Below are positions 54,108 to 60,100 of a stretch of DNA of 64,000 bases, one piece after another; within the stretch, counting starts at the first letter, position 1, and every line of letters starts with the position of its first letter. The stretch spans positions 12,363,263 through 12,427,262 of the forward strand of contig CM021317.1 of the NCBI GenBank assembly GCA_010645155.1, given 5' to 3'. The stretch is from Tigriopus japonicus (taxonomy: Eukaryota > Arthropoda > Copepoda > Harpacticoida > Harpacticidae). A program made the position numbers and the translations under genes. The notes beneath the pieces were generated by a model. It had not been told where the DNA came from. It saw only the letters and a list, made by a program, of their open reading frames with translations, and made no database searches.

Positions 54108-57100
54108 TTAGTACTGATACCAAGGTTGTTTTCGCACCCATCTCAGTTTGATGCCCGCATCCGTGCGAATCTTGATGGAAGCCGCTTCGGCTGCAGTCAC
54201 GGTTTGTTTGACGGATTGCATAAGGTTTTGCGCATTGCCCACCAGCATTTCTGTCGCTTCTTCGTCCTCTTCAGTTCCTGAATATGGTGAAATATGGAGA
54301 GGAAAACATTAGTTAGTTCGGTGAATCATAAGCTGAAGTTATTATTTTTAAGACGTAATTTCGTCCGATAGAGAGTCAAAAGGGGGAAGAGAATGTGAAA
54401 CCACAAGAAATATAGATTATTCCGGATCTAAAGCTAGGAAGACGTTAGAAGATAATGATTAGCATAACTACATAGATATTTTTTGATTAATTGGCTCTTG
54501 GTCCCAACGAAGAGATTCATCGTTCATATCACGATCAAAAAGGTCACCTCAAATTCATGAGCGATTATCCGATTGATTAGTTTCTACGAGTACTACAAAG
54601 AATAATTTGATTTCTCTGAATATAAATTGGTGTTAAACTAGGTAGAGAGGACTTTTCAAGGTCTGTTTTTCTCATTAAAGTTTCACTTGTTTCTCATTAT
54701 GTTTTTTGTCTACTAACCAATACGAGAGACTCCTGAAACAACAAAAATTGACCTTGTTAGAACATGAACCGAATTGCAGACTCAACCATGGATGGAGCAA
54801 TTTCAAAACTGGTCTTATTGTTCATAAAACCCATTGCAATGATTACCTTGCGCGCCCAACATGGTAGCCTTCACTGTTGACAGAATCTTCAATTGTGTAG
54901 CAATCGTCGGGATTCGCTCACAAACTTGCAGCAAACTCTGAAAACAGATAAAAAAGTTCATAGGCCAAAGTTGGACCCAATTAACTCCCTAAAACGTGGA
55001 CTTACCGTCCGCATGCGCTTATCTGTGCATTCTTTGGCCAATTCTTTGGCAATCCTGGTCACCTCTTCAGATGCGTCAGCAGTTGCTTTAGCGCAAGCAA
55101 TGAGTTCGCGCTTAGAACCGGTATCTTCATTAACCAACTGTGACAATTTGGCCATTAGCAAGGCCATCTTTTTTGCCGCTGCAATGATGTCATTGTCCTT
55201 GCTGGACCATTGCTTCACCTCTTGATGGAGATCATGGGCTGCCATCTGTGAACCAAGGTGATAGTGAGCAAAGAATCAACCTTTGTGCGGATTAGGGTAG
55301 AATCCGAAATACCAACCATGATGGGTCCCTGACTTGGAGTGGGCGCGTGGAGGAACAAATCCTCGGACTCGTCATCAGTCGTCTCTGCATATCCTGAGTG
55401 ATCTTGCATGAAGGAATGGCCATGGTTGCTCGAAGGAGGTGGAGGACGTGGCGGTGGGGCCGAACTGGAGTCTAAAATGGGAAGTTACAGGTTAAAGTTT
55501 GTATCATTCAGTTTGATGCTGGTGGGAAAATCAAGGAAATTATTCAGATACTGAAATCAAGGTTGCGTGAAAACTAGTTTTCCTGCTCTCCAATTCAGTA
55601 GGGCAGCAAATCATGTTAGGAGCATTCAGATACAGAGCACTCAAATTAAGGTGACAGTAAGTTAGCACGCACTCAATCTCTACCTTTCTTGATATCCTGA
55701 AACACGACGGACAGAGCTTGATATGAGCCGTCCTCGTCGGAAACTGGTGCCAAAGGTGGCATTCCAGCGAGCGAGGAAGACATGTGATCCCGTTTGTTAC
55801 TACTCGCGGTCCTTCGGGCTGACGATTCTACCGGAAATCGAATGACATCCAGTTAAACATGGAGATGTTTTAAGACTTGTTAGTGTCACACAGAGGCTTG
55901 AAAGAGCCTAGCACGTGAGCTTACTTTGCAGCGAGGAGTTCATTTTTTTGTTCATCCGACTCGAGGAGTGAGAGTGTTGGTATTGTTGGTTCTTGCGATT
56001 AGTGATTTCGTTTCTGAGGTTATTCTGCCTAGTATGGTTACTCTCGCGATGTTGATAGCCTGAGGGGGTACTTCTTTGATTGTCCAGTAACAAATTGTCT
56101 AATTCAGCTTCAAAGTCGCATTGAATGGAAGCAATTTGTTCGTCCATGGCCGTCTTAGCTTTGGCTGGAGGAAGAGAGGATGGGATTCCATTGGACGAGG
56201 TCAAATGTTTACCTTCCTTCTTGGAACTTGATCTTTTTTCAGAGGTACTAAGTTGATCTTCTGGAGGCCAATGGACAGATCTCTCACCTTCACTGGTGTA
56301 CCCATCATTGACTTGGCCAGGCTTACCCAATAAGTCATCCATATCCGCCACATGAGCACTGAGACGAAAGTCATTGTCAAAGAGTGACTGTTTGTTGTGA
56401 ACTTTGGAGGAGTTTTGTAAAGAACCACCCCAATCCTTGGAGGCATCGTTCAAGCCGTTTGTTCCACCAGAGCGATATGAAGAGTCCAAAGTCCAGTTGT
56501 ACATGCCTTTGGCCTCATAATCGGGCATTTGACGGCGCTCACGCCGGTATGTTTTCGTTTTTGTGTGTGGTTCAGGGCTGATGAGGTCGCATCCCCATTT
56601 TCGAATGTAAGGGTTCACACTTTCCGAGGTGGTGTTTTTCTCAATCATGGCCACGAGATCCTTTACAGAGTGGTTATCTTGGTCCGTTACTACTTCGTGC
56701 ATGATTCCTTCCGTGAAATTATCAGATGACGAGGTTCGCTTGAAGTTAGCCAATTTAGGATCCTTACGAGCTAACCCAGTAGAAGAGGCAGATGGGCGCG
56801 AATCGGCACTCTTTGATCGGTTCCACGCGTCTGAAGACTCCGAAGCGCGTTGATTCGAAATTCTTTGGTTATGGCTTAACCGTTGCTTGTCAGATGACCT
56901 TGAGATTCGATTGAATTGATGTGGGTCATGCGTGGTGGTGGAATCGTGATCTCGAATAATCATATCTTGCGCAGTGCGATAGGGCCGAGCAACAAAGGCG
57001 TATTTATCAGGAATTGGAGCCTGGGCAGGCGGTTTGTTGTGCTTATCCAGACCGCTCATTTTCCTTAATCCTGGATCGTTTTCGGCCTCCCTCATAAGCT

Positions 57101-60100
57101 CATCGATCAATGCATCGGCATCAATTTGATCATGACTTGGTTGAGGGGGCTCCCGAGGTCTTGCAGGTGGAGGTTTACCAAATTGTACCGGATCCGACAA
57201 CGACGGCAAAACTGGGACCTTGATTTGACCACTCGACGCACTCTTTGATAATTTGTGACCTCCATTTGCGAATTGGGAAGGAGGTGGAAGGGCTGCGTTT
57301 GAATATGAAAACGATGACGATGTAGAGGATGAAGAGACCTGAGACGCCGCTTTCTTCTTCTTCTCTAATTGTGCTTGGGTCCTCCGATACGAATCCGTGC
57401 CTAATCGAGAACAATGTTCGGTTCAGCATCTTCAAAGCTTCAATGTTAGTATGGAACACTCCAGCAAACTCAAAGAGGTTGTTAATCAAGGGGTTTAAAT
57501 CCACACTCCACATCTGCGAACCTCTTTGATTTTTGGATGGCAAGTTGATTCCCCGATAACTCGAATCTGGGGCGGTAATGTCAGGTGAGCCGAAAATTTC
57601 GCCGAAATCAATTTGGAAAATTTCACTCAGTTCCGAGTCCGTGAACACCTTTTTCTCGTCTTGCCCATGAGGCCTATGATATGAAGGCCGGGCTGCCCGA
57701 GCAGATCCACTGGCCACAGGCATAGTAGCACTCCTCTGCGACTGGGAATCTTAATGCACAAACGTAGGAAACGTCAGGAGAGTGAATAAAAACATCCGTT
57801 TCTTGCTAACCATCTAAATGACAAGGGACTGCCCATCCAGTTATCAACATGAAAACACATGACAGTTTGTCATTTATTGAAATACTACACTCTCAACTTA
57901 GGACCGCAAATGATACGTAAACACAGTTGTTATGCAACCATGCTCCATTCACAACATCTTGTCTAACAAGAGAAACGATTGTGGGTCCAATTTCTTTGAG
58001 AAAGAGCTTTCTACTGGAACGCGAAGATAATTTCCCCGCTGCACTTTCGAAGTAAAGGGAGTGATTCCTTCTCCTTCAAAGGGAGAAATGTAATTAAATA
58101 AGGAGAGAGAAAGTGCAACGAAATCCTCGGTTGCACTTCAAAGCAATCTTTGCTAACTACCTGGTAACCCTTTTCAGGAAAGAAGCAAACAAAGAAGAGA
58201 CCATTAAAGGAAAGAACTTCAAAGGAGTTGAAGGGGATTAAGAAATGATTCGCACATCTCATTTGAAGTTTCGACATTTTTGAAATGTCAGAGCAATGAG
58301 ACCGCTCATCTTTAAATTTCGTCGATTTTCCTTTTTTGTTCCCTAAAGATCTGGCTTTTTAAAGCATTCAAGGTTAAGCGGACGATTTTTTTCCGCCCGA
58401 GAAGATTTGGGAGAACAACAATAATCGACTATGATGGATCCGTTCATCAAGTACAGTATAGATGGACAGAGAGGGCGAGAGACCGCGTTATGCACAAGAT
58501 GCTTTCGCATGACTTTTGTCTTACACTCCCCAAAAATCGAACAAAAGAGCTTTTCTTTCCTAGCACGCCGACTTAAACCCGTCTCATTATTCCTTAAAAG
58601 CTTCCATATCAAATGTTTAAAAATAGGCAGTCTTACCTGATAACGAAAGGTCCCCAATCTTTGGATAGGGCGGCAGAGGAGGTGGCAACGAGTTGGCCGG
58701 ATATTGTGCCACAGCACTTTTAACACCTTCCACAGAGTCCAGCAACTGGAACAAAAGGATTACATCAGATTTGGAACACCTTGGAATGGTCCACTTGATG
58801 TTGTACTGTTTTCAAGGATAGGGATGCATATGTAGTAAATGATGCACTCTTTCAACGTGTGAGAATTGAGTAATGTCTATTCGTGCCTCGGTCTCAAACT
58901 CCTATGATGAAGCTAGTGTTGATTTGTTACAGTGTAGTCACCGGGAACAAATACGGATCAAGTGGAACACTCTGTTGACAGTAGGGAAGGAGGCTGGGAC
59001 AGGCCGAGTAGTCGCCGCCCTGCATTCAACGCCACCTGTGAGAGCATTGGGCACGATCACGCCATGCATTCATACATGGGCGAAGAGTCCATCCATACCG
59101 GGATCTCTCGTATGGAAAATATTGGTTTCCATGAATAATTTGAGGGGGATGCTTTTTAGTTGGCAGAACATGACATGCACTTCTCATTTAAATGCAATTA
59201 TTCATGGAATTGCATAAAAGTGATGGCATGTATGTTCATGCACACTCATAGCCGGATAAATCCGAGGCTTTTATTTCTTGAAGATGTCCAAATGGAGGAG
59301 AGGCACGACAAGAGATCACCCCCGAAACCCTAAACGGACGCTGCAAACGCTGTGTTCTCACAGAGAACAGTCAAATCTTGCAGGAAAGAGGCAGACAGGC
59401 GCCAGGATAGAAGAATCACAGGATGGACTCACTCAGCAGTGAACGTCCACTAGTACGGTACGGGATATTTTACTACAAAATGAAGGCAAAGTGCCAAAAA
59501 ATTCCCCTCCTCCACTTGTTCATGTCATGAACAAATCATCATGGCCATGCAAAGCGAACACGACGTAGTCCAAGCGAGGCTTCTTTTTCCACCTCTACTT
59601 TTGGTTCTCAAGTTTGTGAACATCCTGAGGATTTTTGGGTCTTTTGTCCTGGTTCGGCCTTGTTAGAACTTGTGTTCTCCAATGACAATTGTCAAAGGCT
59701 TGGGCGCATGTATTTGATGCGACTTGTCGGGTTGAATTGAATTTATGTTCCCTGGTTCTGCATGAATGGCCCAGCAAAAAGAAAATTATAGGCTTTTTTT
59801 TCACCGGAGTGAATGAAAGAAATACGGCCTTTACGCAGGCATGCACGCAACTAACTGGATTGAAAGTTCGGGGTGGCCTTTGAAGTTGGTGATTCTAATT
59901 GACAGGAACAAAAGTTGGAGAGAACAGAGGAAATCATAGACTCGACAAGTTTCCGTTTAAACTCGTGGGAGGAGCTGCAAATAGATCTGGAACAACTCGA
60001 CACGCCCAACCCTTTGTATTGACGTGGATTGTCGCTTAATTAAACGAATTTGGAAACATTTCCCTCGTTCGAGGTGCTTTCTGTTCCCGTCAAGCAAAAA

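Follow-up and report, generated by a model that had tools for sequence, protein, structure and literature searches.

A Tigriopus japonicus vinculin gene with a putative optional 616-residue neck insert and a candidate headless start

Vinculin links cell adhesions to the actin cytoskeleton, and autoinhibition between its head and its tail is held to act as its switch. The nearest precedent for the arrangement described here is metavinculin, a vertebrate splice form in which 68 residues are inserted between residues 915 and 916 and replace the first tail helix (PMC7827843). We analyzed a vinculin gene on the minus strand of a 64,000-nucleotide stretch of the Tigriopus japonicus genome (the window, C3:12363263–12427262 of the 195-Mb, 158-contig assembly that was searched), which carries three consecutive exons that would add 616 residues to the neck between head and tail. 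Like the metavinculin insert, this cassette is an optional in-frame addition between head and tail, attributable to alternative splicing; unlike it, the cassette enters at a greater distance from the tail, before a PPPRPPPP stretch, and leaves the tail exons unchanged. The 68-residue, helix-replacing arrangement at 915/916 that defines metavinculin is not found in this gene, where the start of the tail is intact. The head, proline-rich neck and tail match the vinculin family (PF01044), and the cassette-free form has the ordinary layout of that family, whereas the insert and a candidate headless start set the Tigriopus gene apart. In the open-access papers searched, we found no report of such a vinculin insert or of a headless isoform. 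The explanation that we favor, and consider likely, is that one Tigriopus vinculin gene gives several proteins, with the optional neck insert acting as a decorated tether and a second start producing a headless form.

The three cassette exons, which like the remainder of the gene are read on the minus strand, are all bounded by ag and gt; all are in phase 1-1, as the initial annotation had described, and their span and length agree with those it gave. Exon c1 (57522–57749; 228 nucleotides, 76 codons) has a conserved stretch at 57589–57633, c2 (55925–57400) spans 1476 nucleotides or 492 codons, and c3 (55684–55827; 144 nucleotides, 48 codons) has a 16-residue stretch of note at 55694–55741; their sum is 1848 nucleotides, or 616 codons. 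They are flanked by a neck exon (58637–58745; phase 0 in, phase 1 out) and by a proline-rich neck exon (55317–55471) that runs to the residues PIM and is placed by its splice borders and frame. The tail follows in exons at 55006–55245 (PF01044 positions 681–763), 54847–54937 (PF01044 match and frame) and 54108–54277 (positions 796–852, to the TAA), so that positions 681–852 are covered and a five-helix tail with its C-terminal arm is recognizable. Neck and tail exons form one open frame to the TAA either way, with 871 letters when the cassette is included and 255 when it is not (stop counted). Skipping therefore joins the neck directly to the proline-rich exon in frame, as first proposed, but the codon at that junction is split, and the SLSG-DSSS reading given earlier for the skipped form is wrong.

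Just beyond the right edge of the window lie the head exons, with PF01044 matches to the vinculin head bundles at C3:12427940–12432062 on the minus strand (family positions 7–563). An assembly gap at 63561–64277 interrupts the head and takes part of the last head bundle, including the 5′ part of the last head exon; the 3′ part of that exon (63480–63560) matches a paralog on C8 (FVTNSKALANNLNDGNAIKTWR) and P0080, and ends AAG|gtaag in phase 0, which is what the neck exon needs. Because the head exons adjoin the window, the phases match, and the frame stays open from neck to tail whether the cassette is included or skipped, the sequence places head, neck, cassette and tail in one vinculin gene. 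A 15-nucleotide microexon encoding GVSRI (54718–54732; phase 1-1, ag|..|gt) lies between tail exons, and the same residues are found in P0080, the Tigriopus californicus isoform X3; P0072 carries a different short insert at this position. The paralog, a second vinculin gene at C8:3039741–3042601 (L017, L018), is poor in introns and has a short, cassette-free neck, and its tail is 58% identical to that encoded in the window.

The relatives of the 616-residue insert mark it as real coding sequence. A search with c2 (E value, E, ≤ 0.001; 6917 candidates) gave 79 proteins including the window's own (P0001), with an E of 1.0e-76 for the best of the others; c2 itself is present in a single copy in the genome. 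Four of the 79 (P0013, P0072, P0076 and P0079) have a precomputed vinculin domain, which Pfam confirms, and Vinculin was the sole family above its cut-off in nine cassette relatives compared with Pfam. Matches to Talin_IBS2B (P0072) and Succ_DH_flav_C (P0066) fell below their own Pfam cut-offs and were rejected, and three matches of the cassette protein P0002 to solved structures (E 0.79 to 1.1) were taken as chance. In a second search the query was the full-length model and only the insert was scored; it yielded 7 proteins from 7983 scored candidates, namely P0080, five jgi sequences and P0086, the last matched over only 7%. P0080, annotated as a 1604-residue "vinculin-like isoform X3" of T. 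californicus, the nearest named relative, is 86% identical across the insert, and both P0080 and P0085 (1671 residues) have the layout head–neck–insert–tail. P0085 would derive from complementary DNA, since it is a single open frame on a 5914-base contig while the Tigriopus gene has introns throughout. In total, the cassette is joined to the tail in 8 proteins and to the head in 3, the latter count excluding three further assignments (P0002, P0020 and P0070) that came from a loose pattern. In these relatives the insert is thus part of vinculin, in line with the initial annotation, and not a separate transcript.

The same body of sequence indicates that the cassette is optional. P0087, named as an assembled open reading frame (GFUD01), and P0088 both have head and tail, and their neck runs into PPRPPPP without an insert. 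P0088 has 214 neck and tail residues identical to those of P0084, which contains the insert, and the two are therefore assigned to the same or sister species. Among isoform models of the salmon louse (L. salmonis), P0097 is without the insert, P0100 has c1 only, P0102 has a different exon, and P0111 has c1, part of c2, and c3; P0086, a MAKER model whose Tk-type name we take to denote T. kingsejongensis, has c1 and lacks c2 and c3. The residues looked up at insert borders fit codons that start with G, as predicted for a phase-1 junction after G, with the strings being hand-chosen and not a blind count. The skipped and c1-only forms bear out the earlier proposal of an optional insertion in the neck of the vinculin gene. 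Separately, an alternative end, STIR-RRFCV, replaces the tail in P0014, P0015, P0082 and P0083, and P0013 matches P0015 exactly for 507 residues before the two diverge; this end may represent a tail-less form or intron retention.

The cassette exons appear to differ in age. The c1 motif, IFx[VIL][DN]FxxIFG, corresponds to a helix in the neck and occurs in 25 of the 200 fetched proteins versus none of 4000 shuffled proteins; neck-like sequence lies upstream of it in all 25 (by a loose pattern), which identifies c1 as an arthropod neck cassette exon. A third search used the neck and tail as query and found 2577 proteins at E ≤ 1e-60, and among the 120 matches listed 19 have the c1 motif, including proteins of shrimp, crayfish and stick insects. 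When the whole Tigriopus c1 exon was compared with a shrimp insert, 11 of 33 residues were identical (E 8e-8), a fairer test than a c1 profile comparison (97.65%), which is biased by segments chosen with the same motif. Given c1-like neck exons in vinculins of shrimp (P0156, P0139), crayfish (P0169, P0193) and stick insect (P0133, P0171), c1 is, on sequence likeness, older than the copepods. Unlike the Tigriopus gene, the sequences seen of these other arthropod vinculins are without a c2 exon. Five of the 120 matches listed have the Trp block of c2, one from T. californicus and four without an organism name; c2 so far appears copepod-restricted, having been seen only in copepods and in sequences without an organism name. 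The reach of this dating is bounded by shared words and by the 120 matches listed. Homology of c3 between copepods and insects is not claimed (hhalign probability 3.8%, E 0.011).

An alignment of 81 proteins reveals seven conserved blocks in the insert, the longest of which (61 residues) surrounds the Trp block (56568–56669), the most conserved of all. Further blocks include LD-like site 1 (57072–57122), a block with a repeated motif (56949–57005) present in two copies in 44 of the 79 cassette proteins, in one copy in 19 and in none of 16 others, the LD-like sequence VADMDDLLG followed by Gly/Pro (56325–56351), and a conserved helix with LD-like site 2 (56079–56147). An AlphaFold2 model of P0084 (1139 residues), based on a 40-sequence alignment, has a mean predicted local distance difference test score (pLDDT) of 48.6 and a predicted template modeling score of 0.35, with pLDDT below 50 for 793 of the 1139 residues, and suggests that the insert is a mostly disordered chain. 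Helices are predicted in c1 (231–237 and 242–246), at LD-like site 1 (383–398), at 574–584 and, most extensively, over the 37 residues 836–872, for which ten-residue mean pLDDT values are 89, 90 and 84 and within which the counterpart of LD-like site 2 lies. In its best heptad register, this long helix has a hydrophobic share of a/d positions of 0.67 in P0084, compared with 0.71 in the window, and it may pair with another copy.

Upstream of the neck, a candidate alternative first exon, altN (60573–61193, minus strand; 207 codons), opens with an ATG (MVCKCCW...) that has an in-frame TGA 24 bases before it. It is without a good splice acceptor, the pyrimidine share being 0.4 versus 0.6–0.75 in eight exons compared, and its end, CAG|gtgatt in phase 0, would allow it to take the place of the head, in frame with the neck exon that follows. 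An open frame of at least 207 codons arose in one of 500 simulated sequences of the altN region, where the longest frame observed is 224. Three relatives, P0023, P0083 and P0084, have in common PPKSPPKPKRSR of an altN-type N-terminal region and join that region to the insert, with only P0084 running on to the tail. P0083 starts MVAKCCCWKQ and continues through neck and insert, and is identical over its last 745 residues to the head-bearing P0082, that is, the two differ in their 5′ ends. Because altN can be spliced in frame to the neck and a region of this type precedes the insert in relatives, altN probably starts a headless vinculin consisting of neck, insert and tail, which would lack autoinhibition of the tail by the head and so be open all the time.

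GAP-43-like S-acylated N termini have a cysteine pair next to basic residues at their extreme end. The start of altN reads MVCKCCW...; the pattern M..KCC is found at 1 of the 1676 ATG starts in the window, and CC within the first eight residues at 4 of them. By analogy, this cysteine-rich N terminus would fit S-acylation and anchorage in the membrane, and the headless form is perhaps lipid-anchored in this way. In Drosophila flight muscle, the vinculin tail expressed by itself is reported to alter terminal actin structure, with adhesion material not restored (PMC6092120), so that a separate role for a headless form is conceivable. Whether a second promoter in the copepod vinculin gene gives rise to a natural headless vinculin, with an acylated anchor, a 600-residue docking scaffold and an actin-binding tail that together make a permanently open, talin-independent link from membrane to actin, like the tail-only constructs in Drosophila muscle, is in our view an evenly balanced question.

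The role first proposed for the insert was to give vinculin built-in paxillin-like LD motifs at which FAT-type domains or the tail of vinculin could dock, and we now regard this as unlikely. Paxillin LD1 and LD2 are known ligands of the vinculin tail (PMC12013189), and the insert resembles paxillin LD-motif proteins in its disordered chain, acidic-leucine helices and proline runs; unlike them, the predicted Tigriopus protein has no strict LD motif and no LIM domains. Both LD-like helices are indeed present and conserved, as is the Trp block, but the strict pattern L[DE]x[LM][LM]xxL (leucines at 0, +3, +4 and +7, acid at +1; class I LDXLLXXL) occurs in none of the 79 cassette proteins, the window's own included, versus three matches (LDSLLQDL, LDDLMVSL and LDEMLDNL) at this genome's own paxillin locus, which served as positive control. 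At each of the nearest LD-like sites in the window, the +7 leucine is absent. With a matrix built from five human paxillin LD peptides (listed in PMC2572193), the three best cassette sites score 15.2, 14.1 and 12.8, values reached by 8, 0 and 0 of 1000 cassette shuffles, respectively, and the best of them scores higher than any site in the head (maximum 11.2) or the tail (maximum 7.9) of that protein. However, shuffles set a low bar where sequence is helical, site 2 lies within the long predicted helix, and the training peptides score 21.7–24.6; the same-genome paxillin motifs score 21.2, 17.6 and 12.8, one being thus no better than the cassette sites. A relaxed LD pattern has one match in the cassette, equaled in 46 of 1000 shuffles, and the two LD-like stretches had no match among solved structures at E up to 10. 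The strict pattern and the same-genome control rule out strict LD motifs in the cassette and give no support to the paxillin-like docking sites of the initial annotation, leaving a likeness that is weak rather than nil and compatible with weak binding. The paxillin-like locus itself (L020, C5:2299485 region) has its three strict motifs beside frames that we take to be LIM-like and is separated by ~15 kb from a further open frame of PF01044 (C5:2314807–2317323); a paxillin family search gave nothing over the cut-off, and the locus was recognized by LD and LIM-like sequence in its open frames.

Were the insert a passive, entropic spacer, its length would set the force-extension behavior of vinculin and its motifs would matter little; this would agree with the mostly low-confidence, non-helical AlphaFold2 prediction and with large tracts that differ between copepods, but seven blocks conserved over 81 proteins and the retention of c1 outside copepods make it an unlikely account of the insert. 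Far less probable still is that the exons are a separate nested gene or an artefact of assembly or prediction: the upstream ATG exon could start a separate product and the assembly gap does break the head, but every phase matches neck and tail, and the nested gene was rejected on this match together with the relatives that join the cassette to head and to tail. We return to one gene with a decorated tether and a headless start. A phase-1 junction in the proline-rich neck would accept optional phase 1-1 exons, three of which add the insert between head and tail. The insert would then be a long, selectable scaffold or tether with conserved short docking blocks (the c1 helix, the SVKDLV... block, RPYRT repeats and WPP) and a single long helix, which may self-pair, in place of a set of paxillin-type LD motifs. 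With the insert included, the connection from the talin-binding head to the actin-binding tail would be both longer and decorated.

Several points weigh against this explanation. The scaffold function is one that we infer for the insert, and the coiled-coil idea rests on a heptad fit with neither a control nor a dimer test. Inclusion and skipping are seen in sequences of relatives, none from RNA of T. japonicus itself; P0080, like the louse isoforms, is an annotation model, and the jgi and merc sequences are taken as transcripts on account of their long open frames. As for the headless form, P0023 and P0083 stop before the tail, P0084 reaches the tail and is without the extreme N terminus, the likeness of altN to P0083 is short (8 of 13 residues, BLASTP E 0.018), and P0086 uses the end of altN as an internal exon.

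Elsewhere in the window, direct repeats of ~30 bases (gtcgac...aagaagtcgcggcaaaaat) were noted by eye at 53290–53430, just downstream of the vinculin gene. Inspection by eye also picked out plus-strand open frames at 48544–50473 that resemble glycine C-acetyltransferase, and a minus-strand open frame at 42377–42763 that resembles an SLC6-type transporter.

If the explanation favored here is correct, a decorated 600-residue tether, or loss of the head, would separate force-bearing, signaling and membrane-anchoring functions of vinculin by splicing and promoter choice, and the optional insert together with the headless start would be an unusual way of tuning cell adhesion.

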